From Buxus sempervirens (taxonomy: Eukaryota; Streptophyta; Magnoliopsida; Buxales; Buxaceae): a DNA stretch of 64,000 bases. This document shows, piece after piece, positions 46,059 to 63,604 of this stretch (positions are counted from its first letter, which is position 1; every line of letters begins with the position of its first letter). Below the pieces are notes generated by a model. That model saw only the letters and a program-made list of their open reading frames with translations, was not told the origin of the DNA and did not search any database. The translations under genes were made by a program, and so were the position numbers. Where the stretch lies: assembly GCA_947561395.2 (NCBI GenBank), contig OX387187.1:28625829-28689828 (forward strand), written 5' to 3'.

Positions 46059-46479
46059 ATGGGAAGAGAACTCGAAGATGCACGACGTCTAATGGAACCA
46101 GAAGCCTTGGAAGTTACAGAGAACGGTGGAGATTTTGAAACTAAGAAGATAAAGAAGAACAAGAGGAAGAAGAGGAAGGACAAGGAAACAGAACACTTTG
46201 ATGTAAGTGGGGAAAATCAAGCATCAGAACTGCATGAAGGGGAAGCAAAGAGGAAGTGGAAGCAGGAAGAAGTTGAGCTTGTTGGCGAAGAAGAGAACGG
46301 AACCCTAGCAGTCTCGGAAAGCCATGGAAGCGATGCACAAGAGAGAAAGAATAAGAAGGAGAAGAAAAAGAGGGAATTGAATCGCAGTGAGCGGATGAAA
46401 TTTGAGAATGGAAAGGAAGATGAAACCGTAACGGAATTGGAGAAGAAGAGTAAGAGGCAGAAGAAATCTGTTGTGTTTG
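46059..46479 (+). pseudogene. RH5: DEAD-box RNA helicase RH5, 5' part of first coding exon, cut by a retrotransposon
   Basis: Nucleolar-type DEAD-box helicase with a basic N-terminal extension, needed for RNA processing. The 140 residues visible here begin MGRELEDARRLMEPEALEV and are a lysine/glutamate-rich low-complexity extension (KKIKKNKRKKRKDKETEHF, then KSKRQKKSVVF). The frame stops inside the LTR of the inserted element after the shared GTTTG. The same codon frame resumes at 63082. An in-frame ATG lies 15 codons upstream, but a TTACAG acceptor just before 46059 and the family pattern favour this one. As it stands only a short truncated protein could be made. Confidence 0.88.
46475..46479. 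repeat. Target site duplication GTTTG, left copy
   Basis: GTTTG immediately before the left LTR, matched by GTTTG at 63082-63086. These bases are RH5 coding sequence. Confidence 0.95.
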
Positions 46480-47567
46480 TGTTGCTCCAAAAATGGGCCG
46501 GTGTGGACACGTGTCTGTGGTGGTGATGTGTCTCTACGCGGGCGTGCCAGTATCGTTTGATACAATGATTTTCGAGTCGATTCCTGACCCCGGGCACCTG
46601 TTCCGAATCTGAACCGGGATCGGTTCAGTCGTACTGCAAGTCACCTGTAATAAAACGGGTCAGGCGATGGTATGAAGACTAGCGGTTCGGTCTTCGTTTC
46701 GGGTTCTTGTAAGTGTTTGAAAGCGAAAGCAACTAACGGCACACAAATCCTTTATTAATAAATCGGCCGAATAGCCGAAAGCGACAACAGATAATCCTCA
46801 AAATGGAAACAACAAGTGCAAAAGAAAATCGACAGGGCTCGCAGGACCGGCCTGTCCTGGTCTTATAGCCGTAATCGGGTATAAGCGCAGGAGGAAGGGG
46901 GCGGCTGCTTACAAAGTCGGTTCAGGGGGTTCACCTTGGATTGCTGCTTACCCGAAAATACACAAGTCACCTGGCGTGAACAGAGCGAGTCTCGGGACCG
47001 GCTGCTCGGGATTCTGTAAAGACAGAACTGCGAGTCAGGGGCGGCCTCAACTTACTCTCCGGTGGCAGGATTCTGGTGTTAATCGGAGTAAAGAGGGGTC
47101 GAAGATGTCACTGCGACTGGAAGCAGTGAGAGAAGTCCTAGTTTATCCGTCTGTATTAGAGGGGATAAAGGATCACGGATGATCAAAATAATATAATAAC
47201 CGGTTGCGGTTGTGTGGATTGTGTCCTCGAGCTCTTCGAATTGAGGCCTTTTATAGCCGCTCCTTGACGGTTGCTCAACTTCCTACTCTCGCACGATCTT
47301 CATGGCGGTTGTTTATCTTCAGTTCTCTGTTTCAAAGTGATAACCGCCCGGCCATGATCTAATAATTCTATTCTTGAACGGCCGATGGCACGATCTTCTG
47401 CTATTTATGGTTTTGTCTTATTGGCTTGCGTGGCTCGAACCGCATTCTTCTGTATGCGTGCTGACGCGGCCGGCTCAACCCTTCAAAGTCTACGGGCCGT
47501 GGCCTAACCAAGCCACCTAGGCACCACGTGTCCTTCTCTTATTCGTCGGTTATATAGGGTGTAAACA
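46480..47567 (-). repeat. 3' LTR of the Tat element
   Basis: On the minus strand runs from TGTTTACACCC to GGAGCAACA. It contains a TATA box (complement of 47247-47255) and an AATAAAGG polyadenylation-like signal (complement of about 46750). Matches the 5' LTR base for base except one position, as far as I can read. Confidence 0.95.
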
Positions 47568-47582
47568 TTGCCCCCCTACTTA
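47568..47582 (-). promoter_or_regulatory. Polypurine tract of the Tat element
   Basis: On the minus strand, AAGTAGGGGGGCAA immediately precedes the 3' LTR. It is the expected primer site for plus-strand cDNA synthesis. Confidence 0.8.
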
Positions 47583-47715
47583 CTTGTGACGCCGTCATCG
47601 GCCGGTGTGATGAGTAAGTATTTTCGGGTTTTTCAAAATTTGTCCGTCGTTTGATGTGAAAAGATCGCGCCGTTTCCTTACGATCGTAATGATGAAACCT
47701 TTCGGATTTCGCCTT

Positions 47716-47722
47716 CTATAAA
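47716..47722 (+). promoter_or_regulatory. TATA box for the first antisense PMD gene
   Basis: TATAAAG at CTTCTATAAAGTACC, 76 bases before the ATG of the PMD gene and about 150 bases inside the LTR. Followed by a pyrimidine-rich leader. This gives the antisense gene its own promoter, independent of the LTR. Confidence 0.55.
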
Positions 47723-47791
47723 GTACCACAGCCGAGATTTTACTTTACTCTTTCTTTTTGGCTGTTTGTCTTTTCTTCCTCTTTGTCTTCA

Positions 47792-50700
47792 ATGGCGGGC
47801 ACTCTCATACACTATCCTTCTACAGTCGAAGTTTTCGGCAACTCGATATCTGTAGGCCCCTTCATTTGTGCCAGTAATGCTCCTTTGGAGGCCCCGACTG
47901 AGAAAGTGAGGGGCCCTTTACTCTTTACTGACGAAGAGAATCTCCATCTACCTCTTCGCTTTCGAAATTGGCCGACTGCTTACCCTGAATGGAAAGCTTG
48001 GGTTGACCGCATGAAGGATCGTTTTGCCGTTGTTTGGCGTAAGACAGGTATTTATGACATGATTATCTTTTCGTGTCACTCTATTCCCTGCAATCGTGAT
48101 CTTCTCTGCGCCATGAGTTCATTCTGGAATACTCATACCAACACCTTCAATTTCCCCTGCGGAATGATGACTCCTACTGTCATGGATGTCTGCTTTATTA
48201 CTGGTTTCTTCGCGACTGGTCATGAGATCCGGGTCGGTATGGCGGACCTTAAGGATTACCAGCATTTACCTCCGATGGAAGTGGGTGACAAAGGGAAAGA
48301 GGTAGAAAAGAAACGAAAGCAACCCTCAACGAAGAATAACAGGGCTTTCAAGAAGGCACGATCTTCTCGGCCAAAAGGTATTGTGTTGTCTGAGAATGAA
48401 CCTCCACCGTCAGAGAGCGAATCTCCACCAACTTCAATTCATTCTTCTTATCGGTCCTACATCAAGGACTGTGCCAAATTTCGGCCTCCAGCTTATGCAG
48501 ATGAGGTGGAACACTTCTACTTTCTTCTTTATTTTTTCTGCAACTTTGTGTTCTGTTCCAAGGCTCAAGCAGTTACCAAAGAGTATTACTCATTGGTCAA
48601 GTTAATTCTGGGTGAGTATGAAGTTGCCCTTGCTCCTTACTTTTTATCGGTTTTATACCGTTCACTTCAAGAGTTCGTTCATGGCTCCCTTCAGAATCCT
48701 GGGGGGCCATTGTGGTTTCTCCAATTTTGGGCTTATCACTATTTTCCTTCCCAGTTTTATGCTCAAGTACCAATCCCTCCCAACATGCCTTCTGATTTCG
48801 GTGGCCACGCCTGTTTGGCTGCCACTCCAGCTGTTCTATCTTTTTCTGAATGTTTCCGTTTCTTTTTCAATCTTCATAATTTTCCTACTCCTCCTTTTGA
48901 AGTTTCCGCAAATTCTCCCGGTTTCCTTTCAATGGTGGATGACATAACTGACGAGCAGCATCTCATCTGGGCCAGTTTTCTGAAGGCTCGAAATTTAAAT
49001 TATGCTGTGAAGTCAATTAACAAGAAACCGGGGTATGAAGTATACTTACCCAATTGTGTCGGCCGGCAATTTCAATGTGAACAGAGGATCCCCTTATTTG
49101 ATATAGATGGTTTGTTCACAATTAATGCCAAATCTGTTGATCGGCCGTCTGTCACTGTAGCAGAGGCTGCCGACATGGAAGATGCTTATAGAGTTACTGC
49201 CGTTGAATTTCGACTTCCCTTTCTTCCTCGTCATCACGACTGTCGCAGTGATTTCCATGTTTGGTGGAAATCTTTGTGGAACAATATCTGCTGTTATTCG
49301 GCCGATTATTATCTGGAAAGGATGGGTCTGTTTGAGCCCCCGGCTTCACCTATCCAAGAAGGTATATTCTTATCTTTCTTGTTTCTGATCCGCTTGATGT
49401 TCACTCAGTTTTTCTGTCATTAGGTAAAGTTCCGGCTCTAGCTTTGGAGGCTAGTCCACTTGAACTTTTGCCTGAACCTGTCCAAGAAGATATCAGTTCA
49501 GCTATTAGGCCACCCGGTGAAACGCCGTTTCTTACATTGGAGGCTCATGCTTCTCCTTCCGGGGAATTGGCCGAAGCTGATGCGTTGTCACCAGAATGTC
49601 CTCTCTCGATTGTCCCGTATGAAGATGATGAGGATCCCGACGATGTCCCACTACGATGGCGTCCTCGGAAGGTACAGGATCTTTATTGCTCCTCTTCTTA
49701 ATTTTATTTTTCGTTCTGACATTTCATTCTTCTAGGCTTCGAGTTCCTCGGGTCCAACTGCTTTTTCTTCCAATGTCATGGAATCTTCTTCGGATCTAGT
49801 TGTTGATCCCATGTCTGTTTTTGATTCGGCCAATTTCTCTGTTCCTACCGAAGCGTTGGATTCTCCTGGTAGCGTCGTTGCAGCAGCCCCTTTAGCACTT
49901 GCTGAAGGTCAGGAGCATTTATCCGTTCAAGAGGTTTCTTCAGAAAGAAGTCCGTCTCCCGAGTTACCTCCTGGATATGAGCAGAGTGCTGCCTTACCGG
50001 TAGTTGGGATTGCAACGTCTACTATTTCTATTGGGCCTTCCGGCCCTTCTGCCTTGGCCGATATTCCTTCTGATTCTCCTGTTACAGCAGCGGAAGTTGA
50101 TATTGGTCGGTCGAAGCAAAAGCTTAACGACTTGGGGAGTTCCAGTTCATCGCTTATTCCTTCTTTTGCTGCGGGATCACTCCCTGGTGATGGCCGATTG
50201 GACACTATATTGAACGATGTCTGTTCTACTCTCTCATCAGATGGCTTATCTGAGCCCTTATCTCCAACGAGTATCCGATCGGAGATTACTCGCCTCCTCT
50301 CTCCAGGAATAATTGGTATTTCCGAAGAGACTCTTACCCGTGTAATGGCATTGGCTGCACAGCTTCGGGATCTGTCTTCTGTATCTCCTGATGTCAAATC
50401 GGTGTTCTCTCAACTTACTCTCCTTTACCCTTATAAAGTTGTCTTTGACCATCTTTCGGCCAAATTACATGAAATGAGTAATACGGCCGACTCTGTTGAT
50501 GGTCGATATCAACTTTTGCAACAGTTGAGGAATGAGCGCGAGATTTGTCATCATCAGTTTACTGAAACGGTCCACCGTATAAACATCATTGATGATGATA
50601 TTTCGGCGGTCGACCGTCAGATTGCTGAGTTTCAGTCTAGGAAGTCTGATCTTGTAAATCAACGGGAGGAACTTCTTCGTACACATAACTCTATTGATGA

Positions 50701-50872
50701 CACCTTGAAAGAGAAGACCCGTCAGTGCATCGAAATCTCCCACGAGCTGAAATCGGAGATAGAGTTGGCTCGAGGTTCCTCTCTGCTTCGGTCCACTTTG
50801 GTTGAAGAAAAACGGTCTGCCCAAGAGTCTTTTGACCGTATATATTCTGCCATTTTAAATACTTATTTGTAA
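47792..50872 (+). CDS. Plant mobile domain (PMD) protein A, antisense gene of the Tat element
   Basis: Three exons with clean GT/AG borders and consistent phases: 47792-49361, 49424-49671, 49736-50872, giving 984 residues without a stop. The N-terminal half is a plant mobile domain (as in MAIN/MAIL1 and many TE proteins): RFRNWPTAYPEWKAWVDRMK, MIIFSCHSIPCNRDLL, NTFNFPCGMMTPTVMDVCFI, YFLSVLYRSLQEFVHGSL, GPLWFLQFWAYHYFPSQF. A basic insert with NLS character (KKRKQPSTKNNRAFKKARSS) splits the domain. Then come an acidic proline/serine-rich linker and a C-terminal coiled coil (RQIAEFQSRKSDLVNQREEL). MAIN-type PMD proteins act in gene expression and TE silencing; the job of the TE copies is not known. 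It runs opposite to gag-pol. Confidence 0.85.
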
Positions 50873-51209
50873 AGCATTTAATGAATTAAACTCTTTTTTG
50901 GAATCCATTTTGCCAACTGTCCTAGCCGTCAGAATCGGCTCCTTTTTCGACAAAGTTATCTTTTCAATTTGATTCATCCGTATGATCTTTACCCTTAAAA
51001 ACGCTTTTTTCGAGAAGATATCGAGCCGCCGTTTCGATTTCTTCGGGAAGGCGATCGTACTATCAACATCTTTTTCGGGAAGACAGCAGTCTTATCAACG
51101 TCCTGCTCGATATTTTGAATCATTACGAGCTCTCCTTCCTGCAGACGTTTCCTTGTTTCATTTCGTCTTCTTCCTTCGAGCTTTTCTTTTCTGATTTCTG
51201 GTATCGATC
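50873..51209 (+). other. Spacer between the two PMD genes
   Basis: 337 bases holding the 3' region of PMD A and the leader of PMD B. TTTTTCG and CTTCGGGAAG phrases repeat. No clear TATA box was seen, so PMD B may use a weaker promoter. Confidence 0.4.
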
Positions 51210-53964
51210 ATGGCGGACGACAACCCTAACGACTTGAATCTGTTCCTTGATGGTGAGGATGGTCCTGTTCTTGGTCCATGCACTGGTGACGAGACGGAAA
51301 AGGCCCCAAAGGTCCTGCACTCTTCCTACCACTTGATCAGCGCCTCTGATCCTGTGAGATGGGGTAATCTGATTACTCTTCCTCGCTCCTGGCCTAAGTG
51401 TTCCCCTGAGTGGAACAAATGGGTTGAGCGTTTACGGTCTTATTATATGGAGACCTGGGTTAGGCTAGGTTTGGCGGAGATGATCTTCTATTCCACATTC
51501 TACATTCCCTTCAATCCTATTTTGCTTGGGGTGGCCTCATTTTTCTGGTGTCGGGGTTCCAACACCTTCTCCTTTTACCATGGGCCTATGACCCCGACCC
51601 TGTTGGATGTTTGCTGCATCACAGGTCTTTCGGTCCTTGGGGAAGAAGTAGATTCTACCCTGTCCGTTTTCTCATCTTCTGTTTTTAACACCGCTCATGC
51701 TTCTTCTGCTTTCGGCACCTTTGTTCGTGCTGAGCGAGTTCCAAATACCGATAATCCTCCTTCCCTTCAAGAGCATTGCTCTTTCTTGCTGTTTTTTCTT
51801 TGCCATTTTTTCTGCTGTGGCCCATCTGCTCAGATGGTAAAGGAGTTTGCCGGTATTGCGGTAGCCCTGGCCCATGGTCGCCGTTTGGCTCTAGCCCCTT
51901 TCTTTCTCAGCCAGGTCTACCGTGGTTTACACAGTCTGTCTTCCGGCCGATTAGGGGTTGCCAGTGGCCCTCTTTGGTTTTTACAATTCTGGTTTTATGA
52001 ATACTTTCCCGGCTTTTTCTGTACAGCCGTAGACAATCCTTTTCCTAATTATTACTATGCCGGCCGTCGTTGGCTTACCGCAACACCTATTCAATTGTCT
52101 TTCACGGCTGTTCTTGATTTCTTCCTGGTAGGTCTACAGGAAAATAATCCTCCTTTATTCCATCACTTTTCTCTAGACCAATTTCATGGGTCTCCCCTTT
52201 ATGCCGCCATCAATTCTTCTCCAGAAGCTCACCGACGTGCTACGGCCAGTTTTCTTATTGCCCGTGAGCTTCCTTTTGGCTTGCATAACCGAGATGCTCC
52301 TGCCACTTCTAGAAGAGAAGGGGTGGAAATATATCTGCCGCATTTCGTCAGTCGGCAACTTGGTTATGGCCAAGGCATTCCTCTGGTGGTGTTTTCATCT
52401 ACCAATGGTGGCTCTCGGTCTGTTTTGAGCCCTAGTTACCTGTCATTAGCAACTTCTCGGTTCCGCGATCTTTCTGATCGCTTCCGCAATTATCCTCTTC
52501 CCCGGGAATCCTCAGTTGAACCTTCCTTTCGTCGATGGTGGTCTCAGCTTTACTCTGACTTTGTCCGGCTTGATGCAGAGTCGTATACTGCGCTATTTCG
52601 ACCGAATGCGGTCGATATAGCGAGTATAGGCAAACTCCGCGGGTATTATGAGGCCCGTTACCCAGGTAACTTTCTTTTATGTTTTTATAAATTGATCTTC
52701 TTTATTCGGTCGCGTCTGACTTTCTTTTTCTTTATTAGATGATCCTCGATCCTCCCATGTGAAGAGCAAGAAGAAGAAAGCCGAGACGTCGGTCACCTTT
52801 AACTGGCGGCGACCTTCCAAGGTTTCTGCCAGTCGGAGCAACCCTTCTTCCAAACAGTCGCCTTTGAAAAAACGGAAGATTGGTGAGGTATCGGATGGTC
52901 GTGCTTACGTTACTCGTTCCAGTTTGCGACTCCGAGTTCAGCATCCAGGTGAGCGTGTCGTCGTGGCTGACGATTCTTCGGACGAGGAAGAAGACATCGA
53001 TTTATTTCGTCCTCAGCATGGGCCTCCAGTTCATTCTGGGAGTAGTGGTAGATCAACTCCCATGCCGACTCCTCCTCGTGCATTTCATTATGCTAGTCCC
53101 CCAACCTCAACTCGATTTGTCACTCCTTCGACCGATCCGTTGCCTAGTGCATCTAGGCCGGCTCCTTTCTTCCCTCGTCCCGTGGTTGATGAAGCTGGTC
53201 CATCCACTATGCCTGGTGCTGCTTCCTCTGGTTCTTCTTCTGGTGAATTACCTTCTGAGCCAAAAATTCCTGTGGCCAAGGAAGAAAATTATAGACCCCT
53301 CCCTGGTACTTGCTTCGGATTTGTCAGGTTTTGCTTCATGGAAGTAGACCGTTGTCTTTCATCTCCAGAGTTTCATGACCTTCGTCCGGCATTTCTTTCG
53401 GATTTTGACAGTTGGAACGAACTCCGCTCCTTTGTTCTTCGTCAGCCTGAAGAACTTTCTGACGAAGAATTGTCAGAAGTTCGATTGTTGATATGCAGAG
53501 CCGTAGTGATGAATTCTCGCGGGGATCGTTCAACCGGAGATCGGCTGATGTCCATGCTTGGTTTTTATAGTGCCGTGCCGCAGCTAAGGGAAGCCATGGA
53601 CTTTCTCCGTTCTGTCAACGTGAGATGTTCCGATTTCCGTCAAGAAATCCGTGCTGTATATGGTCATAATCGCCAGTTGGAAACTTTGAGGTGGTCTCTT
53701 CATAAAAATTCTCTTGGCCAGGGCTCTATTGCTGGTGACCCATCAGATACTGCTCCAGACGAATTATCTCGGCTACAATCTGAGGAACATCATCTTAAAG
53801 AATCTATCCAGATTCAGATGCTGCTGATCGAATCGAGCCGGCACCGTTTGGAGGAGCACATGAGGGATGAAAGGGAGGTGGAGGTGCGTCGAGCTGAGAT
53901 GCAATTATTATTGGAGCGGGCGAAGTATGATCATGCCCGATTTCAGACTTGGTTCGAAAGGTAA
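51210..53964 (+). CDS. Plant mobile domain (PMD) protein B, second antisense gene of the Tat element
   Basis: Two exons, 51210-52665 and 52739-53964, giving about 893 residues with no stop. The start MADDNPNDLNLFLDGEDG is acidic. The PMD follows with the same motif order as PMD A: LPRSWPKCSPEWNKWVERLR, MIFYSTFYIPFNPILLG, NTFSFYHGPMTPTLLDVCCI, FFLSQVYRGLHSL, GPLWFLQFWFYEYFPGFF. The phase-1 intron at the end of the domain is at the same place as in PMD A. The tail differs: basic KSKKKKAETSVTF and SPLKKRKIGE (NLS-like), a Pro/Ser-rich linker, then a coiled coil ending RAEMQLLLERAKYDHARFQT. Overall identity to PMD A looks low, so the duplication is old although the insertion is young. Confidence 0.85.
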
Positions 53965-54436
53965 GGTTATAAAACCTTTTCTAAACAATCATACCGTTTG
54001 TTCGGTATTCACTTTTTATGATAATGCCATATGGCTGGCATTTTAAACTTTATTCAGCCGACTCCTCGGCTTTTATTAAATGGTAGTTTTTTGCATGCTT
54101 TTTGGATGCGTAACATACTCGTTTTATTTCATATCTACTGCTCGTCATAGAAAGATTAGAACTAAACAAACAAAATAAGAATGTTTTTATTTCAACATTG
54201 ATCTTTCATACAACCAAAGCCGAGCTCTTCTGGCTCTTTCATACAATCAAGGCCAGATGTATCAGCCGGGGTATGATAATACAACCGGGGCCGATATGCC
54301 CCTGAAATTGCTCCGCACTCCAACCATAGACGGTGTTAGTGAGGGCCAATTCCTTCAAAGGGGCAAGAGGAAAGAGGGGGGGATGGCGACTATTCCGACC
54401 GGCGTAAATGCTGGTCGGAGGAGAGAACTCTCGTCT

Positions 54437-54589
54437 CTACCCAGAACTTGGTGGGAGAAGACCCACCGTGATGGGGTCAGCGAGAGTAGAGTCGCCTTTT
54501 CCGATCCCGCCCATTCTCATGAAGTCATCGGCTTTGTTGACTTCTTTTTCTCCGATCGTCTCCGTCATCGGCTCTTGACTTTTCGCCAT
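54437..54589 (-). CDS. Small ORF with its own TATA box, function unknown
   Basis: On the minus strand an ATG at about 54589 opens a 50-residue frame, MAKSQEPMTETIGEKEVNKA to GLLPPSSG, acidic at first and hydrophobic at the end. A good TATA box (TATAAATA, about 54637-54644) lies about 50 bases upstream. It is in gag-pol orientation, downstream of pol. It could be the remains of another accessory gene or a chance frame. Confidence 0.3.
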   Translation of the reverse strand: MAKSQEPMTETIGEKEVNKADDFMRMGGIGKGDSTLADPITVGLLPPSSG

Positions 54590-54636
54590 CTCTTCTCTTC
54601 TTCCCTTTCTTGAAAGAATGGCGAGCATTGCCTTAG

Positions 54637-54644
54637 TATTTATA
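54637..54644 (-). promoter_or_regulatory. TATA box inside the Tat element, minus strand
   Basis: TATAAATA in the minus-strand context GTCTATAAATACTAAGG, upstream of the small ORF. An internal promoter at this place would be independent of the LTR. Confidence 0.4.
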
Positions 54645-54791
54645 GACCGATCGTTAGAAAGAAGATCAATGGGTTTGAGCGGATCTCGAAGAGATTTCCT
54701 ATTTTAGTCTAATCCGCACTGTATGTCGGCTCCTCGATTTGACAATGCCATTTATTTGGCGTTGCAGGTACCGAACAGTAGATATTTTATT

Positions 54792-57700
54792 TTATTCCTG
54801 ATTTTCCTCAGGTTGGTTATTGATTTCGCGGCTTTCCCATAGAGTGGGAAAGTACCGTTTCAAAAACTGGCCGTTGATAATCTTCTTTTCTTGGCCATCC
54901 AATGACTGTATATGGTATGCCCCCCCGGGCAATACCTTGCTGACTTGTAATGGTCCTTCCCACGTGGGGGACCATTTTCCATACAAAGAATCCTTTTTCC
55001 CTATTGGCAGCAGGGTTTTCCACACTAAATCTCCTTGAGCAAATGATTTGTGTTTTACTCGGCGATTATAGGATCTTGCAATCCTTTGCTTGAGGGCTCT
55101 CTGCCTATCCAGGGCTAGCCTCCTCATCTCTCCCAAGTCTTCTAATTCAACTAACATTGCTTCCGTGTAATCCTTGGGAGTGAAATTATTCTGAATAGCC
55201 ACCCTTAACGATTTGACCGTGATTTCGGCCGGAATAACTGCCTCATGACCGAAGGTTAAGGCAAAAGGGGTAGTTCCAATAGACGTCTTGTAAGACATTC
55301 GATACGCCCACAATGCTTCAGATAAGAGTTTATGCCAACTTCTTGGCTTATCCTCAATCATCTTTCTTAGGATATTTTTCAACACCTTATTCGTGGCTTC
55401 AGCTTGCCCATTTTCCTGTGCGTAATAGGGTGTAGATTGAATCATTCTGATGCCATATGTTTTGGCAAATTCAGTCACTTCTTGTCCTACAAAAACGGTA
55501 CCTGAATCGGTCGTAATGGTTTCGGGGATACCGTATCTGTGAATTATCTGTTCTCTGATAAACTCAATCACATCCGATTGTTCCACTTTTTTCAAAGGTT
55601 TAGCTTCTACCCATTTGGTGAAGTAATCGGTGGCCACTATGATGAAGTTGTGTAGACCGGTCGAAGGAGGATACACTTTTCCAATCAAATCCATTGCCCA
55701 ACCTCTGAAGGGCCATGGCTTGACTATGGTTTGCAATTCAAATGCCGGCACCCTCTGAACTGGTCCATGTTTCTGACATTCTTGACATCCTGCAGCGAAC
55801 ATCTGACAATCTTTCAAGATTGACGGCCAGTAATAACCATGCCGACGTAATAACCATCGCATCTTGACTCCTGCTTGGTGTGCGCCACAAATCCCTTCGT
55901 GTACTTCGGCCATTATTAACATGGCTTCTGTTGGGTTGACACATCTAAGTGGGATGTCCTCAATACTCTTTTTATATAGCTCATCGCCCAGAATAAAATA
56001 GTTGGCAGCTTTCCTTTTGGTCGATCTGCTAGTCTTTATAGTAGGATCTTTAAGATATCCCCAGATCTCACCTCTCCAATCCTGTCTTATTGTCTGGTTA
56101 CAACATGCTAATGAATCCACCAGAAATGGTCTTTTCTCGGAGTTGGGGAGAGATTGTATGGTTACCGTTCTAACTGAATCGCGCAGTCTGAGTCCAGATG
56201 CCAACTGGGCTAGTTCATTAGCTTGGTAGTTTTCCTTCCTTGGCCGATGTTCGAATTCAATTCTATTGAACTGCTGGGCCAAGAATCTCGCCCTTCGTAG
56301 CAACAACACTAATGACTCGCTATTGCAGTTATATATGCCCTCCATTTGCTTCAAGACGAGTTGGGAATCTCCAACAATATTAACTGCTCGAGCACCCATT
56401 TCCCATAGAATTTCCAACCCTATAATTGTAGCTTCAAACTCTGCCTGATTGTTTGTGGATAATTCTTCAAGCTGAAATGCATGTTCGTGCTTGTCACCAG
56501 TAGGTGAAGTTATTACTACTCCGATCCCAGAAGCAAACTCTGTTTTTGAGCCATCAAATTCCAGTGTCCATGGTTGGAATTCGGCATAGCAAAAACTGGC
56601 ATGAAATACTGGGATATCCAATTCTTTTTCCTGCACACTAGATGGATGATCGGCCAAAAAATCGGCCAATGCTTGTCCCTTTACCGCTTTCTGCGGTACA
56701 TATTTAAAGTCGAATTCCATCAGAGTCAGGGTCCATTTTCCGAGTCTACCACTCACCGTAGGCCGAGTGAGCATGTACTTGACCACGTCAGTGGCTGCTA
56801 TGACGAAAATTTCTTTGGCCGACAGGAGATAATGTCGTAGTTTGGTAGCTGCATAATAGAGTGTTAGACACAACTTCTCTAGATTAGTGTACCTTTCTTC
56901 CACTGGAGTCAGGAATCTACTGAGGTAATAAATGGCCTGCTCATATCCTTGATCGTTCTCTTGAGCCAACAAGACTCCAACTGAATCGCTCGAAGCCGCT
57001 ATATAAAGTTTTAGCGGCCGTTCTTTTGAAGGTGGCACCAAAACCGGTGGGGTTGCCAAATATTGTTTGATGCCTTCAAAAGCGGCTTGATGGTCTTCAT
57101 TCCAGATAAACTCTTCAGTATTCTTGATTTTCAATAATGGGGATAGGACCCTGATCTTCCCGGCCAGGTTTGAAATGAATCTTCTCAAGAAATTCACCTG
57201 GCCGAGCAACCTTTGTAGTTGTTTCTTATTGGCTGGTGGTTTGGCCTCTATGACCGATTTTGCCTTATTTTTATCGACCTCGATTCCTCTCTGGTGTACG
57301 AGAAAGCCTAGGAAATTTCCGGCCGATACACCAAAAGCACACTTTAATGGATTCATTTTCAAACTGTACTTACGAAGTCGTTCAAAAACCTTCTTTAAAT
57401 GCTGCAAGTGGCCCATTTCGGTCTGAGACTTTATCACAACATCGTCAATATATACCTCAAGTATTTGACCGATCATGTCATGGAAGATAAGATTCATTGC
57501 CCTTTGATAGATTGCGCCAGCATTCTTTAATCCGAACGGCATAACCACCCAACAATAAGTTCCTAATGCTCCTGGGCATCGAAACGCCGTTTTAGCTACA
57601 TCTTCCTCGGCAATAAAGATTTGGTTATATCCGGAGTGGCCGTCCATAAATGACAAAAACTTATGCCGTGATGCATTATCAACTAAGAGGTCTGCGATCG

Positions 57701-58367
57701 GCATTGGATATTCGTCCTTGGGCGTTGCAGAATTCAGATTGCGGAAGTCAATACATACCCTAATTTGACCATTCTTTTTAATTACGGGTACAAAGTTTGA
57801 AAGCCACTCGGCATATCGTATCGGCCTAATAAACCCGGCTGATAAAAGCCGTTCTATTTCAACCTTCACTTTACATACCACGTCGCCACCCATCCTTCTT
57901 GAAGGTTGTCTGAATGGTTTAAATTCTGGCTTGATCGGGAGCCTGTGTTCTACCATTCTTCGGTCCAATCCTGGCATCTCTTGATAAGTCCAGGCGAAAC
58001 AGTCCGAATATTCGGTTAACAATAGTCTCATTTCTTGTCTGACCGAAGGTGGTAATAGCTTACTTATGAAAACAGGCTTCTGTTCCACCTCTGTCCCCAG
58101 GTTGATTTCTTCTAATGGATCTTGGGTATCTACCTTCAGGTCTTCTAATTTGGCTGGTGCTGCTTGTAGGTCGGCGAGAGTAATCTCATTCCGGTTTAGT
58201 ACCCTTTCATCCTCTTGTTCATTAATGAATTCGGCCGAGTTTATCATTATCTCGCCGTTTTCCAGCCATTCTTGTTCCTGCTGCAACTTCCCTATCTTTT
58301 CTTCCTGCATGTAAGCCGTCATCTTTCTTACGACGGCTTCTGCGACTTCTGATGGTTTAACCATCAT
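54792..58367 (-). CDS. pol: Tat-lineage pol: reverse transcriptase, RNase H, archaeal-type RNase H, integrase
   Basis: A 1191-residue frame without stops. In order: RT from about residue 140 with RVCIDFRNLNSATPKDEYPM and the catalytic YIDD at about 306; the gypsy RNase H around 430-560; a second, archaeal-type RNase H from about 598 (LEFDGSK, NNQAEFEA, VGDSQLV), the Tat hallmark; integrase from about 820 with HEGICGAHQAG, the HHCC finger (CQMFAAGCQECQKHG), a DDE core with DLIGKVYPP, ITTDSGTVF and ENGQAEATNKVLKN; and a C-terminal domain ending NGQFLKRYFPTLWE. No chromodomain. It overlaps the protease frame by 11 bases in a different frame, so translation needs a frameshift or reinitiation at the ATGATGG overlap. 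Confidence 0.95.
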   Translation of the reverse strand: MMVKPSEVAEAVVRKMTAYMQEEKIGKLQQEQEWLENGEIMINSAEFINEQEDERVLNRNEITLADLQAAPAKLEDLKVDTQDPLEEINLGTEVEQKPVFISKLLPPSVRQEMRLLLTEYSDCFAWTYQEMPGLDRRMVEHRLPIKPEFKPFRQPSRRMGGDVVCKVKVEIERLLSAGFIRPIRYAEWLSNFVPVIKKNGQIRVCIDFRNLNSATPKDEYPMPIADLLVDNASRHKFLSFMDGHSGYNQIFIAEEDVAKTAFRCPGALGTYCWVVMPFGLKNAGAIYQRAMNLIFHDMIGQILEVYIDDVVIKSQTEMGHLQHLKKVFERLRKYSLKMNPLKCAFGVSAGNFLGFLVHQRGIEVDKNKAKSVIEAKPPANKKQLQRLLGQVNFLRRFISNLAGKIRVLSPLLKIKNTEEFIWNEDHQAAFEGIKQYLATPPVLVPPSKERPLKLYIAASSDSVGVLLAQENDQGYEQAIYYLSRFLTPVEERYTNLEKLCLTLYYAATKLRHYLLSAKEIFVIAATDVVKYMLTRPTVSGRLGKWTLTLMEFDFKYVPQKAVKGQALADFLADHPSSVQEKELDIPVFHASFCYAEFQPWTLEFDGSKTEFASGIGVVITSPTGDKHEHAFQLEELSTNNQAEFEATIIGLEILWEMGARAVNIVGDSQLVLKQMEGIYNCNSESLVLLLRRARFLAQQFNRIEFEHRPRKENYQANELAQLASGLRLRDSVRTVTIQSLPNSEKRPFLVDSLACCNQTIRQDWRGEIWGYLKDPTIKTSRSTKRKAANYFILGDELYKKSIEDIPLRCVNPTEAMLIMAEVHEGICGAHQAGVKMRWLLRRHGYYWPSILKDCQMFAAGCQECQKHGPVQRVPAFELQTIVKPWPFRGWAMDLIGKVYPPSTGLHNFIIVATDYFTKWVEAKPLKKVEQSDVIEFIREQIIHRYGIPETITTDSGTVFVGQEVTEFAKTYGIRMIQSTPYYAQENGQAEATNKVLKNILRKMIEDKPRSWHKLLSEALWAYRMSYKTSIGTTPFALTFGHEAVIPAEITVKSLRVAIQNNFTPKDYTEAMLVELEDLGEMRRLALDRQRALKQRIARSYNRRVKHKSFAQGDLVWKTLLPIGKKDSLYGKWSPTWEGPLQVSKVLPGGAYHIQSLDGQEKKIINGQFLKRYFPTLWESREINNQPEENQE

Positions 58368-59586
58368 TTGGTAGTTCTTTGAGTTCGGCGACTGCGGCTA
58401 CTTCTGTAATCTGTAGTTGCGCCGTTTGTAGTATAGCCGAATTTGAAGTGATCGGCTGCCCATTCTTGTCATATCCACTGAATGAAATTGGTTTTACCCC
58501 TTCGTTATAAAGGGATGCATGTGCGGCATTGGAATCCACGGCAAATGGCCGCTGGTCGGCTTTTACTTCTTCGGTCTTGCCATCCTTCCAAAACAGCAAC
58601 GATTGGTGTAAAGAAGATGGTACACATTTGTTTGAATGGATCCAATCTCTTCCCAGCAATGCATTGTATCCGGCGGATGATTCAATTACGAAGAATGCCG
58701 TAAGAGACTGCCGTGTCCCAACCGTTAGTTCGATTGGGAGGATTCCTCTAGTTCCTGTAATACCTCCTGCAAAGTTAGTGACGGTGATCTCGGAAGAAAT
58801 TAAATCCGAATAAGACTTACCTAATTTCTTCAATGTGGATATTGGGATGAAATTTATTGCTGCTCCATTATCAATTAGAATTCTATTGATAGGGATCCCA
58901 TTCATGTGCGCCTTTATAAATAAAGGTTTCAGATGTTGAGTCATGGTTAAGGATGGTTCAACGAAACATACCTCTCCCACCAGACCGATTTTGTCACCAT
59001 CGGCCGGTTTCTGATCTTTTTTCTCTTCTTCGAGATGTTCTGGATCAATCACATACAAAGCTACTGGGTCTTCCTCCTCCTGGATCTCCTCTAAACGTGG
59101 TAACTCCATGCTGGCCCCAAAAGTCATAGGTAAAGTGAGGACCATATGACAGTCGAGTGGTATCGGGGGCATCCGACCGAAACAGATTTCGGCGATTGAT
59201 GCATCCGCACTCAATGGAGGTTGACTCAGCGACTCACTGATCTCGTCTTTGGGATTTTCGAGCGTCAATTCCTCTGTTATTTCCACCGTAGACGGAGTTG
59301 AGATTCTACTGTACTCTGTTAACATTTGTTCAACTAACAATTGTTCTCCCTCTCCTCCGGCGAAATTGTCTGTCAACTCTTCGTCCGAAACCAACCTTTC
59401 GGTCACTGCATTGGAATTGTGCTCGGGCGTGGTGTCTGGAGGGATTGGTGAATCAGGCGGGCTCTTTTTGAGCCTTTGTGGCTTCGGAAGGCGTCTTTTG
59501 GCAACAAACCTAGACGACCAATATGGCTCGGATGATCCAGTACTCTGTTCCTGGTATCGTCTCTTAGCTTGCTGTCGCTGCCAGCG
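58357..59586 (-). CDS. pro: Retropepsin-like protease region of the Tat element
   Basis: In frame with gag after a single TGA (59589-59587). The protease core is HMNGIPINRILIDNGAAINF, IPISTLKKLG, then LPIELTVGTRQSLTAFFVI and YNALLGRDWIHSN, the aspartic protease flap and hydrophobic-hydrophobic-G order. The active-site triplet is D-N-G rather than D-S/T-G; Tat proteases often vary here. It is released as part of a gag-pro or gag-pro-pol polyprotein. The N-terminal 180 residues are an acidic linker (EELTDNFAGGEGEQLL). Confidence 0.85.
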   Translation of the reverse strand, partial: RWQRQQAKRRYQEQSTGSSEPYWSSRFVAKRRLPKPQRLKKSPPDSPIPPDTTPEHNSNAVTERLVSDEELTDNFAGGEGEQLLVEQMLTEYSRISTPSTVEITEELTLENPKDEISESLSQPPLSADASIAEICFGRMPPIPLDCHMVLTLPMTFGASMELPRLEEIQEEEDPVALYVIDPEHLEEEKKDQKPADGDKIGLVGEVCFVEPSLTMTQHLKPLFIKAHMNGIPINRILIDNGAAINFIPISTLKKLGKSYSDLISSEITVTNFAGGITGTRGILPIELTVGTRQSLTAFFVIESSAGYNALLGRDWIHSNKCVPSSLHQSLLFWKDGKTEEVKADQRPFAVDSNAAHASLYNEGVKPISFSGYDKNGQPITSNSAILQTAQLQITEVAAVAELKELPNDG

Positions 59587-61944
59587 TCAATTCTGCGTTC
59601 TGGTCAGTTCTGCGATACTTGCCTGCGCATGAAAAGGAAATTTAGGATGAGTCAATCTTTTCCAGTGACCATCCTGGATAATAGGTGGTTTTACCATCCT
59701 GGGTTTGACCCCGTTTACCATCCTGTATTGCTCGTAAGTCATGTAGCCGCTGTCTCTAACGGAGCTATAGGTGGCTGCCGTCCTTGTCGGCGAGCCTACT
59801 TGTCTACCAGATGTGAAGTACAAGGGTCTCTTGCCCCCCTGAGTGTGGCGTGCATCTTCATGCTTGACTGATTTCCCTTTGTATTGGGAATACCGGTATT
59901 CTGCTATCACTTTTTGCTTGCAGTCTTGGCAAAGGAGGCCTAGTGACATCTCTATTTTCTCCGGAATCTTGCATGATGTATCTTTATCGACGGAAGACTC
60001 CTCTGAGGATTTAGCAACCGTTTCCAGTCGCTTTTTGGTTGCAGCTTGATTGGAAGACAATTCAGAAGGAACCAAAACCAATTTCTTTGTTGTTTTTTCA
60101 TTGAGTTCTGGTTTCCTGTCTTCTTCTATTCTGGGTTCGCGTCTGGGCTTATGCCACCATTCACCCCAGATTTCCCCTTTCCTCTCTTGATGCCATGACC
60201 GTCCTTGTGTAGGTGGATACCTCCAATGGTTCCTTGGTCGTAAATTCACCTGGTTTTGCACTGGTTGTGCTGTTTTCCCCCATTTCCCTGAGGAAGATCC
60301 ATCCAGGTCGATCTTAACTGCTGGAGTGCGTTTTGGCAATCCAATGGTAACCATATTTGCCGACACCTCTTTAGGGAATGGTTGTGTGTCGACCTGCATC
60401 TTTTCTTTGTCGGTTTCTGCAAACTTCAGGAGCCCTTTATCAATATTCTCCTGTATCACATTACGAAGCACAGTACATTCATTAGTTTCGTGAGTTTTTA
60501 CCCCGTGCCATTTACAAGCTTTACCCTTGGCTGCCACATTGGCTGGGATAAAAGGATGGTCTTTGGTTAATCTGAAGAATCCCTGTTTCAAGAGGTATTC
60601 AAATACTTCAGCCGTCTTATTTATGTCAAAGGAATAATTTCGGCTAAAAGTACTCGTCTCCTTTGTTGCCTCTGTATCCTTGGTTTTCCGGATAAGAATC
60701 GGGCAGGTGATTGATTGTTTTCCCACGACTTCTACAACTCCGTATTCAAAGTTCGGGTCTTTGTAATAAGACCCGTAAGATGAGACTTTCTTTTCGTTGT
60801 CTTCCTGTAATAGCCACTCGTATTTGGTGGCTCTGGCCGACAACTCAAATAAGTCTTCGAACTGTTCACCTTCGAATTTCTTTCGGAGTTCAAAGTGTAA
60901 TCCATTTAAAGCCAAATTTGCAAATTCCGATTCTGGTAAAAGAATTCGGCATTTGTTTTTCATATATTTAAAGCGAGCAATATATTTATCGGCCGATTCC
61001 CCTGGTTGTTGTCTTAACCGAGCAAGATCAACCATGGTTACTTCGGGCTCCGTACGATAAAATTGGGAGTGGAATTTTTCTTCCATCATTCCCCAATTTG
61101 TAACTGAATTGGCCGGTAAAGTAATATACCATGTAAAAGCCTGTCCGGTCAATGAGTTTCCAAATAGTCTAAGTCTAAGGAAATCATTACCGGATGCTTC
61201 TCCACATTGAACCGTAAATCGGCCAATGTGTTCAATGGTAGATTGTTGACCTTCTCCTGAAAACAAAGTGAATTCGGGAATTTTGTATCCCCTAGGGAAT
61301 TCAAATTGTTGGTCAATCCAGCCTGGGTAAGGTTTCCTATAAACTGGCCTAGTCATTCGTCGGTGATATTGATCTCCGATCATTTCTTGAATTACATTTT
61401 GAATGTAATTACGGTTTACGGCCATATTTCTTACCCCGATATCTTCTCTATGGTTCTCCTGTGCTTCCCTTTGTCCCATGGGTCGCACCTCGATCGGAGG
61501 CACATTGGGATGAACTGGGACACCAGGAGGTATTTCTCCCCTCAAAGCAGCGGTGTTGGCCTGTTCGTGTCGGCCGTTTACACCTAGGTTCATGATTGGT
61601 GGCTGCTCCGGGATATTTATCCTCTCGTGAGCATTTGACCCAGCAGCCGATGTTTCGGCTCGTTCGGTCATTATGACAGGTCTTGCCATTGTAGAGAAAC
61701 CTTCTTGTAAAACCGCTAGGATTCTACCATTATCAGAAGAAATTTTGTTAATACCCTGGCCAAAGCCTGCCATTTGTTGGCTGAGACCTTGTATGGCCTG
61801 AATAAGTCGCTCATTAAGGTCCGGCTGAGAACTCGAAGGTCCTTCTTCCGGGACCTCTGAAGCATAAAGAGGATTTACCTGAGATTCGGCAGGTTCCTCT
61901 GGCGCTGCATTTTCAGCATGCCGAGTACTTCTTCTTGCCGCCAT
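59587..61944 (-). CDS. gag: Gag of the Tat element
   Basis: 785 residues starting MAARRSTRHAENA; upstream in-frame codons reach back into the LTR and are not expected to be used. The capsid-like Retrotrans_gag domain includes FPRGYKIPEFTLFSGEGQ, NSLTGQAFTWYITLPANSV, LARLRQQPGESADKYIARFK and LNGLHFELRKKFEG. A zinc-knuckle-like motif CKWHGVKTHETNEC follows. The rest is basic and glutamine-rich. It ends at TGA 59589-59587 in the context CAG-AAT-TGA-CGC, after which the same frame continues into the protease. Confidence 0.93.
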   Translation of the reverse strand: MAARRSTRHAENAAPEEPAESQVNPLYASEVPEEGPSSSQPDLNERLIQAIQGLSQQMAGFGQGINKISSDNGRILAVLQEGFSTMARPVIMTERAETSAAGSNAHERINIPEQPPIMNLGVNGRHEQANTAALRGEIPPGVPVHPNVPPIEVRPMGQREAQENHREDIGVRNMAVNRNYIQNVIQEMIGDQYHRRMTRPVYRKPYPGWIDQQFEFPRGYKIPEFTLFSGEGQQSTIEHIGRFTVQCGEASGNDFLRLRLFGNSLTGQAFTWYITLPANSVTNWGMMEEKFHSQFYRTEPEVTMVDLARLRQQPGESADKYIARFKYMKNKCRILLPESEFANLALNGLHFELRKKFEGEQFEDLFELSARATKYEWLLQEDNEKKVSSYGSYYKDPNFEYGVVEVVGKQSITCPILIRKTKDTEATKETSTFSRNYSFDINKTAEVFEYLLKQGFFRLTKDHPFIPANVAAKGKACKWHGVKTHETNECTVLRNVIQENIDKGLLKFAETDKEKMQVDTQPFPKEVSANMVTIGLPKRTPAVKIDLDGSSSGKWGKTAQPVQNQVNLRPRNHWRYPPTQGRSWHQERKGEIWGEWWHKPRREPRIEEDRKPELNEKTTKKLVLVPSELSSNQAATKKRLETVAKSSEESSVDKDTSCKIPEKIEMSLGLLCQDCKQKVIAEYRYSQYKGKSVKHEDARHTQGGKRPLYFTSGRQVGSPTRTAATYSSVRDSGYMTYEQYRMVNGVKPRMVKPPIIQDGHWKRLTHPKFPFHAQASIAELTRTQN

Positions 61945-61959
61945 TAGTGCTCTTTCAAA

Positions 61960-61988
61960 GACTAATGGTCCCACCGGGCGTGCCAAAA
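61960..61988 (-). promoter_or_regulatory. Probable primer-binding site of the Tat element
   Basis: Just inside the 5' LTR on the minus strand, TCCCTTTTTGGCACGCCCGG leads into TGGGACC. The TGGCACGCCCGGTGGGAC part occupies the usual place and ends in the style of Tat elements. I could not assign the tRNA. Confidence 0.5.
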
Positions 61989-61993
61989 AGGGA

Positions 61994-63081
61994 TGTTGCT
62001 CCAAAAATGGGCCGGTGTGGACACGTGTCTGTGGTGGTGATGTGTCTCTACGCGGGCGTGCCAGTATCGTTTGATACAATGATTTTCGAGTCGATTCCTG
62101 ACCCCGGGCACCTGTTCCGAATCTGAACCGGGATCGGTTCAGTCGTACTGCAAGTCACCTGTAATAAAACGGGTCAGGCGATGGTATGAAGACTAGGGGT
62201 TCGGTCTTCGTTTCGGGTTCTTGTAAGTGTTTGAAAGCGAAAGCAACTAACGGCACACAAATCCTTTATTAATAAATCGGCCGAATAGCCGAAAGCGACA
62301 ACAGATAATCCTCAAAATGGAAACAACAAGTGCAAAAGAAAATCGACAGGGCTCGCAGGACCGGCCTGTCCTGGTCTTATAGCCGTAATCGGGTATAAGC
62401 GCAGGAGGAAGGGGGCGGCTGCTTACAAAGTCGGTTCAGGGGGTTCACCTTGGATTGCTGCTTACCCGAAAATACACAAGTCACCTGGCGTGAACAGAGC
62501 GAGTCTCGGGACCGGCTGCTCGGGATTCTGTAAAGACAGAACTGCGAGTCAGGGGCGGCCTCAACTTACTCTCCGGTGGCAGGATTCTGGTGTTAATCGG
62601 AGTAAAGAGGGGTCGAAGATGTCACTGCGACTGGAAGCAGTGAGAGAAGTCCTAGTTTATCCGTCTGTATTAGAGGGGATAAAGGATCACGGATGATCAA
62701 AATAATATAATAACCGGTTGCGGTTGTGTGGATTGTGTCCTCGAGCTCTTCGAATTGAGGCCTTTTATAGCCGCTCCTTGACGGTTGCTCAACTTCCTAC
62801 TCTCGCACGATCTTCATGGCGGTTGTTTATCTTCAGTTCTCTGTTTCAAAGTGATAACCGCCCGGCCATGATCTAATAATTCTATTCTTGAACGGCCGAT
62901 GGCACGATCTTCTGCTATTTATGGTTTTGTCTTATTGGCTTGCGTGGCTCGAACCGCATTCTTCTGTATGCGTGCTGACGCGGCCGGCTCAACCCTTCAA
63001 AGTCTACGGGCCGTGGCCTAACCAAGCCACCTAGGCACCACGTGTCCTTCTCTTATTCGTCGGTTATATAGGGTGTAAACA
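61994..63081 (-). repeat. 5' LTR of the Tat element
   Basis: 1088 bp, same borders as the left LTR. The minus-strand TATA box GCTATAAAAGG (complement of 62761-62769) would drive gag-pol; the transcript would start about 30 bases further. Confidence 0.95.
62761..62769 (-). promoter_or_regulatory. LTR TATA box (gag-pol promoter)
   Basis: TATAAAAGG on the minus strand in the 5' LTR; the same site in the 3' LTR is 47247-47255. Pol II promoter of the retrotransposon, inferred from sequence. Confidence 0.65.
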
Positions 63082-63604
63082 GTTTGATAATGTTGAAGCT
63101 AAGAGAGGCCAATATGAGGAGTTAACGAGTGAGGATGGTGTGACTGTGTCCGGAAATAATGTAAAGGAATCGAAGTATTTGGCTCTGAGTTCTTTTGCTG
63201 AATCTCGACTTCCCGACGAGGTGATTGAATGCTGCAAGAATTTTAGCAAACCATCGCCAATCCAGTCTCATGCTTGGCCTTTCCTTTTGGATGGGCGGGA
63301 TTTCATTGGAATTGCGGCGACTGGATTTGGTATACATTAGAATTTTGCATTAGAGACTGTGCTCTTTTTCAAAATTTCGTCTATTTGATGTTTTAGTTGA
63401 AGTGGTTGTGTTTCTTTGTTCGCTGCGTAATGTTTTATTCTATTTAGTCTGATGATGTGACGTGTTTTCTTGTGATCAGGTAAAACTTTGGCATTTGGGG
63501 TTCCGGCACTCATGCATATATTGCAAAAGGAACATATGAGAACGTCAAAGAAAAGGAATCCACTTTGCCTTGTACTTTCACCAACAAGAGAACTAGCTCA
63601 ACAA
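63082..63604 (+). pseudogene. RH5: DEAD-box RNA helicase RH5, continuation after the retrotransposon
   Basis: Resumes the exon cut at 46479: [19 protein letters not shown], then [20 protein letters not shown], the Q motif ([20 protein letters not shown]) and motif I, A-A-T-G-F-G-K-T, split by an intron (63330-63479). Exon 63480-63604 carries [15 protein letters not shown] and motif Ia [12 protein letters not shown] before a GTATGTG donor. The core residues of motif I are intact, and no other damage was seen, so the gene was probably functional before the insertion. DEAD motif and the second RecA domain lie beyond the window. Confidence 0.9.

Follow-up and report, generated by a model that had tools for sequence, protein, structure and literature searches.

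Two tandem antisense plant mobile domain genes, apparently maintained by selection as proteins, are a family trait of a Tat-type gypsy retrotransposon in Buxus sempervirens

The window analysed here is a stretch of 64,000 nt from Buxus sempervirens (assembly GCA_947561395.2, contig OX387187.1, positions 28,625,829 to 28,689,828 of the forward strand). It holds a Tat-type Ty3/gypsy element of 16.6 kb on the minus strand (46480-63081). Two spliced genes, here called A and B, lie between pol (54795-58397) and the 3' LTR (46480-47567) on the plus strand, antisense to gag-pol, and each encodes a plant mobile domain (PMD). The features are as follows, in window coordinates.

46475..46479, unstranded: left target site duplication (TSD), GTTTG
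46480..47567, minus: 3' LTR, 1088 bp, one mismatch to the 5' LTR
47568..47581, minus: polypurine tract adjoining the 3' LTR, identified by eye
47717..47722, plus: TATAAA, candidate gene A promoter, about 70 bp before the ATG
47792..49361, plus: gene A exon 1, containing the PMD (protein 86-493)
49362..49423, plus: gene A intron 1, phase 1, 62 nt, GT-AG
49424..49671, plus: gene A exon 2
49672..49735, plus: gene A intron 2, 64 nt, GT-AG
49736..50872, plus: gene A exon 3, linker and C-terminal coiled coil
51210..52665, plus: gene B exon 1, containing the PMD (protein 87-445)
52666..52738, plus: gene B intron, phase 1, 73 nt, GT-AG
52739..53964, plus: gene B exon 2, basic NLS-like segment, linker and charged C-terminus
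54795..58397, minus: RT-RNase H-second RNase H-integrase (pol) frame
58360..59586, minus: aspartic protease frame
59587..59589, minus: in-frame stop between gag and protease, found in the window copy only among 7 compared
59590..62079, minus: gag frame
61968..61985, minus: candidate primer binding site, identified by eye; no tRNA gene lies within the window
61994..63081, minus: 5' LTR, 1088 bp
63082..63086, unstranded: right TSD, GTTTG

The two LTRs differ by 1 mismatch in 1088 bp and the 5-bp TSD matches on both flanks, and thus the window copy is young, as an earlier sequence-only reading of this DNA had held. That reading had also placed the element in the Tat lineage, and the order of the pol domains agrees: RT (residues 197-355 of the pol frame), RNase H (422-552), RVT_3, a second RNase H (604-722), and integrase (811-981). 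An extra RNase H domain lying after the first and ahead of integrase is the mark by which the Ogre/Retand group of Tat is recognised (PMC6317226). Ogre elements are further described as having a primer binding site against tRNA-Arg (PMC9289625) and a gap, 274 bp on average, between the gag-protease and RT-integrase frames, with an intron in pea and Medicago (PMC6317226). No such gap separates the protease and RT frames of the window copy, which overlap at 58360-58397. The stop at 59587-59589 was absent from all six other copies compared; the window copy is therefore not fully intact, its PMD genes being intact and its gag-protease frame broken.

Gene A encodes a protein of 984 aa and gene B one of 893 aa, neither with an internal stop. 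Both matched the PMD profile PF10536 over positions 1-347, at 112.1 bits (E = 4.3e-32) in exon 1 of A and 111.3 bits (E = 7.4e-32) in exon 1 of B, well above the curated cut-off of 34.9 bits. The claim of two uninterrupted PMD genes between pol and the 3' LTR is thus borne out by exons, GT-AG introns and profile scores, and the absence of a PMD match, named beforehand as grounds for dropping it, was not seen. NLS-like basic segments had also been reported, and clusters of this kind occur at residues 173-190 in A and 496-532 in B, by pattern only. A C-terminal coiled coil had been assigned to each protein; on a crude score, it exceeded shuffled controls in A (residues 842-870 and 878-915), and the same score did not rise above shuffles in B, so that this part of the claim stands for A only. 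The TATAAA before gene A had its first base kept in at least 95% of 40 copies and its other five bases in all of them, and the block around it was more divergent than the whole upstream stretch (0.0385 vs 0.025). No promoter was recognised for gene B. A structure prediction for the gene A protein from a two-row alignment gave a pLDDT of 30 and was discarded, and sequence search found no solved structure related to A or B.

Judged by their sequences, A and B are old paralogues with 29% identity. They scored 163 bits against each other and 40 and 30 bits, respectively, against the best-scoring PMD repeat in the genome (L002), a comparator that is not a genic MAIN/MAIL sequence; FastTree placed A and B as sisters, with a support of only 0.70. 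By eye, L002 resembles PMD-C. An assignment of the repeats L001-L005 to MULEs was rejected, because SWIM segments in L001 and L004 fall largely or entirely beyond the sequence that the copies share.

The pair is a family trait, since B was found downstream within 9 kb at 64 of the 82 scored A matches and both genes were present in at least 30 of 40 copies picked by flanking sequence other than the PMD genes. The distance from A to B was 3.33-3.43 kb in 61 of the 64 paired matches. Among 40 copies read, A was intact in 28, B in 25 and both in 19; in the remaining 21, one gene or both were broken or truncated. Broken copies had been named as an observation that would count against the genes being kept, and they do occur, but the substitution pattern among copies is still constrained. 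The stop variants were not all private, one site in A having a stop in two copies. GT-AG splice sites were kept in every assessable copy (39/39 for A, 37/37 for B).

Selection was estimated from 35 A and 33 B sequences, with mean synonymous distances among copies of 0.07-0.08. Values of dN/dS were 0.31 for A (bootstrap 0.25-0.38) and 0.21 for B (0.17-0.28), not near 1 as would be expected had the proposal of selection been wrong. The PMD (A 0.24, B 0.155) and C-terminal (A 0.25, B 0.20) parts were constrained and the linker (A 0.59, B 0.36) was loose; the C-termini played no part in choosing the copies and show the same constraint. In the gene frame, pN/pS was 0.32 for A and 0.20 for B, vs 0.98-1.91 in the other two frames of the same strand, and N/S for variants present in at least two copies was 0.26-0.31 (A) and about 0.155 (B), vs 0.45-0.49 for singletons. 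One sense-strand frame echoed the signal (pN/pS 0.42 for A, 0.24 for B) because wobble positions coincide; sense-strand coding was rejected as the source of constraint, as in the window copy that frame is interrupted by 48 stops over A and 43 over B. Overall, A and B appear to be maintained as proteins by purifying selection, since the low dN/dS is tied to the gene frame, the splice sites are kept and most copies of the family carry the pair.

That Tat elements can carry PMD genes has been published before (PMC6317226, PMC5418596); what is new, relative to the available text of these sources, is the conserved pair, of which no earlier report was found in the passages searched. A PMD was reported in 57% of Ogre elements (PMC6317226), the clades PMD-A1 and PMD-A2 are described as exclusively gypsy-encoded (PMC5418596), and among the atypical domains of plant LTR elements the PMD is listed as the commonest (PMC9289625). 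The present element shares with PMD-carrying Tat/Ogre elements the Tat pol order and extra PMD genes outside gag-pol, and differs from those described in the portions available in having two distinct tandem PMD genes, both spliced and antisense. Retand/Grande-type elements carry antisense TRP28 ORFs, and some of their antisense ORFs have Smc-like (coiled-coil) matches (PMC11963269), but their domain is Transposase_28 whereas that of A and B is the PMD. By the Retand criterion, an antisense TRP28 (PF04195) ORF in 97% of recent clusters, a TRP28 relationship of A and B was rejected, as PF04195 matched none of A exon 1, A exon 3, B exon 1 and B exon 2; a search of this genome with the profile gave no match, but as it gave none in any control genome either it does not establish absence. 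The MULE-captured PMD-C genes are also transposon-borne, but there the PMD is fused to the transposase of a DNA transposon, unlike A and B in an LTR element (PMC5418596). The PMD-C-like repeats L001-L005 of this genome are remote from A and B.

A and B are probably kept because they are useful to the element's life in the nucleus. Taken as a whole, the proposal we favour, at a confidence somewhat short of even, is that they form a two-gene antisense module encoding a regulator that would act in the nucleus, possibly as a heteromer, on the chromatin or transcription of the element itself. Each predicted protein has its PMD in the N-terminal part and also carries a basic segment of nuclear-import type, a loosely constrained linker and a constrained C-terminal region. 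Both may be expressed from internal promoters, with the TATA box before A as a candidate, and would enter the nucleus and act jointly, perhaps as a heteromer by analogy with host MAIN and MAIL1, which interact mutually and with PP7L in TE silencing (PMC7156037). These host PMD-C proteins belong to the same domain family and are likewise two PMD proteins working together (PMC7156037, PMC9899485); A and B differ from them in lying within a transposon and in having added linkers and C-terminal regions. The target would be the element's own chromatin or transcription, and the effect most likely an offsetting of silencing. The sequence-only reading had suggested that A and B perhaps counter or mimic host PMD-dependent silencing, which here too stands as an inference.

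A TE-encoded anti-silencing protein of the kind supposed here is known in VANC of VANDAL MULEs, but VANC targets noncoding tandem repeats (PMC10398659) and no such target was found in the noncoding regions of this element, its one weak 14-bp array (score 44) lying inside gene B. One-mismatch matches to the one printed instance of the DOWN motif numbered 8 in the window vs 6.2 expected and 0 in the element vs about 1.6 expected by length, so this count says little. Separately, the element had a mild excess of the words ATCGGCC (17 vs 3.5 expected) and TCGGCC (33 vs 13.5); these sites fall in all codon phases, and the number of copies retaining a given site ranges from 5 to 40 out of 40. Elsewhere in the window other words are in stronger excess.

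A possible, if unlikely, alternative is that A and B assist the replication cycle as accessory proteins, acting in nuclear entry of the cDNA-integrase complex or in integration-site choice, as retroviral accessory proteins do. It fits the same dN/dS and gene-frame pN/pS values and the basic clusters of both proteins, and such a role was proposed for antisense ORFs in a review (PMC7264820), but the cellular functions reported for PMD proteins concern transcription and silencing (PMC7156037, PMC9899485). A bolder form of the regulator proposal, which we regard as rather doubtful, is a selfish two-subunit PMD complex, a counterpart of MAIN-MAIL1, that would shield the LTR lineage, its antisense placement keeping introns and a separate promoter through reverse transcription. 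Because broken copies apparently have few descendants, such a complex may give an advantage to its own encoding copy; the stop common to two copies in A lowers the odds of this form.

That A and B mimic host MAIN/MAIL1 and titrate PP7L or another partner in a dominant-negative manner seems improbable. They share the domain family, and PMDs captured by MULEs have been suggested to serve against silencing (PMC5418596), but both are far from the PMD-C-like repeat, on bit scores from a comparison among repeats. We consider it quite improbable that the antisense transcripts matter rather than the proteins, by pairing with genomic RNA and tuning copy number via small RNAs. The convergent arrangement, a proposal to this effect (PMC7264820) and the phased siRNAs from PMD genes of tea (PMC10673657) speak for such a role, but constraint that follows a codon frame is not what RNA pairing would predict, and the dN/dS values have already weakened this reading. 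That A and B are functionless passengers, intact-looking through the youth of copies such as this one and often broken elsewhere, is very improbable and was rejected on a dN/dS far below 1 at these synonymous distances, tied to the gene frame and more pronounced in variants shared among copies than in private ones; only a sampling artefact behind the low ratio would rescue it, and against that stands the same constraint on the C-termini.

The constrained pair has consequences beyond this locus. It shows that antisense genes in Tat elements can encode genuine proteins on which selection acts, and need not be chance open frames; the family also offers a direct test of whether such proteins bind one another, the PMD partners of the host or the DNA of the element itself. 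A co-conserved, constrained pair of PMD genes also bears on whether the silencing PMDs of the host came from transposons or the reverse, a question raised in the available text of PMC5418596.

On the strand opposite to gag-pol, the element carries two genes with a plant mobile domain (PMD; profile PF10536), here termed A and B:

46480-63081, minus strand: Tat-type LTR retrotransposon with paired LTRs, target duplication and polypurine tract
47792-50872, plus strand: gene A, between the 3' LTR and pol, three exons, 984 codons
51210-53964, plus strand: gene B, between the 3' LTR and pol, two exons, 893 codons

The polypurine tract adjoins the 3' LTR, the target duplication GTTTG is present at both flanks, and the LTRs, 1088 bp each, differ by a single mismatch. 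Given ~1e-8 substitutions per site per year, a single difference between LTRs of 1088 bp corresponds to an age of tens of thousands of years. The sequence-only reading of a young element was thus borne out, but the whole element could not be described as intact, as one stop at 59587-59589 breaks the gag/protease frames. This stop was missing in all six other copies compared over gag-protease (L049-L054) and probably originated in the window copy or its immediate source. The pol domains run from reverse transcriptase through RNase H and a second RNase H to integrase, which is the order reported for the angiosperm Tat elements Ogre and Retand (PMC6317226).

All introns of A and B are GT-AG and none has a length divisible by three; the full proteins therefore require splicing. 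Both genes matched the PMD profile over its full length (112.1 bits for A, 111.3 bits for B), and they aligned with each other at ~29% identity across ~520 residues (163 bits), far above the scores of a third PMD family (L007; 47 bits against A and 52 bits against B). L002, a repeat copy that was itself a top scorer against the PMD profile, gave 40 bits against A and 30 bits against B. A phase-1 intron follows shortly after the PMD in both A and B, and is missing from the reading frames of L007 and L008. The simplest reading of these sequences is that A and B would stem from an old duplication inside the transposon lineage, for which tree support was weak (0.70).

The third family (L006-L008; ~950 aa with a coiled-coil-like end) is remote from A and B; L007 and L008 are intronless open frames of 970 and 985 aa, L006 is interrupted, and no tandem partner for any of them was found among 117 scored genomic PMD matches. 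The genome's top PMD scores (165-173 bits over half of the profile) belonged to five copies of one repeat, closely related to each other (L001-L005), which we take to be PMD-C-like, judging by eye. A SWIM zinc finger adjoins this repeat above the cut-off in L004 and slightly under it in L001; these segments lie in the flanks, mostly or wholly beyond the stretch common to the copies, and a MULE link is therefore unsupported.

The arrangement of A and B was recurrent in the 676.5-Mb genome. With exon 1 of A as query, 82 copies were scored among 2079 candidates, and with exon 1 of B, 88 among 1132, the window being included in each; 65 of the 82 and 63 of the 88 matches listed were stop-free. In 64 of the 82 A matches listed, a B match followed on that strand no more than 9 kb downstream, at a spacing of 3328-3429 bases in 61 pairs and 4.1-7.0 kb in three; none of the A matches listed had a B match in the 9 kb upstream. 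Unpaired matches among those listed (18 A, 24 B) do not necessarily lack the partner. A PMD-independent sample, obtained through the noncoding stretch 53990-54620 (40 copies scored of 300 candidates, window among them), showed both genes among the A and B matches listed in 30 of the 40 copies, so at least 30 carry the pair; the listed matches gave B only in four, A only in three and neither in three; both exon-1 frames were stop-free in 22 of 40.

Integrity was then read from the PMD region of 40 copies (L009-L048), out of 44 other genomic PMD matches whose length and span on the profile place them in the A type. A was intact in 28, carried one or two stops in six, was frameshifted or otherwise broken in five and truncated in one; the respective numbers for B were 25, seven, five and three (truncated or absent), and 19 copies had both genes intact. 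GT-AG splice sites were kept in all assessable copies (39/39 for A, 37/37 for B). Among the sequences used for dN/dS, 15 internal stops fell at 14 sites, 13 of them confined to one copy and one, near the end of A, shared by two (L011, L022). Two one-base deletions were common to many copies and were compensated where the frame was intact; in a comparison of deletions, no permanently frame-shifting one of the frameshifted copies was found in two copies. Since stops were nearly all private and such deletions unshared, it seems that few descendants come from broken copies, within this modest sample.

After frameshifted or truncated copies had been removed (6 for A, 8 for B), dN/dS was counted over 35 sequences of A and 33 of B, those of the window among them. 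It came to 0.31 for A (0.24 in the PMD part, 0.59 in the linker and 0.25 in the C-terminal part) and 0.21 for B (0.155, 0.36 and 0.20, respectively). The copies are non-independent, and picking them by PMD score may have depressed the values for the PMD part. The C-termini played no role in this selection of copies and showed the same constraint, and N/S was lower for variants common to at least two copies than for singletons. In a frame control (3 of 41 sequences dropped, a random 18 of the remaining 38 kept), pN/pS was 0.32 (A) and 0.20 (B) in the gene frame, 0.98 to 1.91 in the remaining two frames of that strand, and 0.97-2.05 in two frames of the sense strand. The third sense frame (0.42 for A, 0.24 for B) shares its wobble positions with the genes and contains 48 (A) and 43 (B) stops. 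Distance to the window was uneven between genes in some copies (L020, 4.4% in A and 2.5% in B; L011, 3.6% and 5.1%), and the two distances were correlated (r 0.82, 29 sequences); recombination between element RNAs is a possible source of the inequality.

Gene A plausibly has its own promoter, as judged from a TATAAA ~70 bp upstream of its ATG and outside the LTR, of which the first base was kept in at least 95% of 40 copies and the other bases in all. Divergence was 0.025 over the 224 bp from LTR to A, compared to 0.063 at fourfold sites and 0.039-0.055 in introns; the 41-bp block that holds the TATA box (0.0385) exceeded the remainder of that stretch. No promoter was recognised upstream of B. 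Since the genomic RNA is made from the other strand, introns and promoter of antisense genes can in principle survive reverse transcription. Separately, the word ATCGGCC was in excess within 46480-61993 (17 vs 3.5 expected), and its core TCGGCC was counted 13 times within gene A, 12 times within pol and a single time within gene B.

PMD is reported as the most frequent atypical domain in plant LTR elements (PMC9289625) and as present in 57% of Ogre elements, with Transposase_28 in 23% of Retand elements (PMC6317226); PMD clades A1 and A2 are described as restricted to gypsy elements (PMC5418596), and antisense Transposase_28 ORFs are reported for 97% of recent Retand clusters (PMC11963269). 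Thus, a PMD in a Tat element and antisense placement are both of known kinds. The literature searched gave no report of two different PMD genes kept as a tandem pair with demonstrated selection. By its sequence, the element appears to match neither group cleanly: unlike Ogre it has no gap between frames, and unlike Retand its antisense genes do not carry Transposase_28. The Transposase_28 profile PF04195, described as typical of Retand antisense ORFs (PMC11963269), had no match in the genome in a search that gave none in control genomes either.

Both ends of A and B are conserved and the middle is loose, a layout that would fit a protein with a binding domain and an interaction part at its opposite ends, and basic clusters in both proteins suggest a nuclear location. 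The host PMD proteins MAIN and MAIL1 are reported to interact mutually and with the phosphatase PP7L, and the silencing of certain TEs as well as MORC1 expression is reported to require them (PMC7156037, PMC9899485). Tandem-repeat targets of the type associated with VANC, the anti-silencing proteins of VANDAL MULEs, were absent from the element. The DOWN motif had no one-mismatch match in the element, where ~1.6 would be expected by chance, and its absence therefore carries little weight. The nearest rival is that A and B serve as accessory proteins for nuclear entry or integration. By analogy with MAIN and MAIL1, we favour the reading that A and B would form a nuclear, perhaps heteromeric regulator that acts on the chromatin of the element itself, most likely to oppose silencing.
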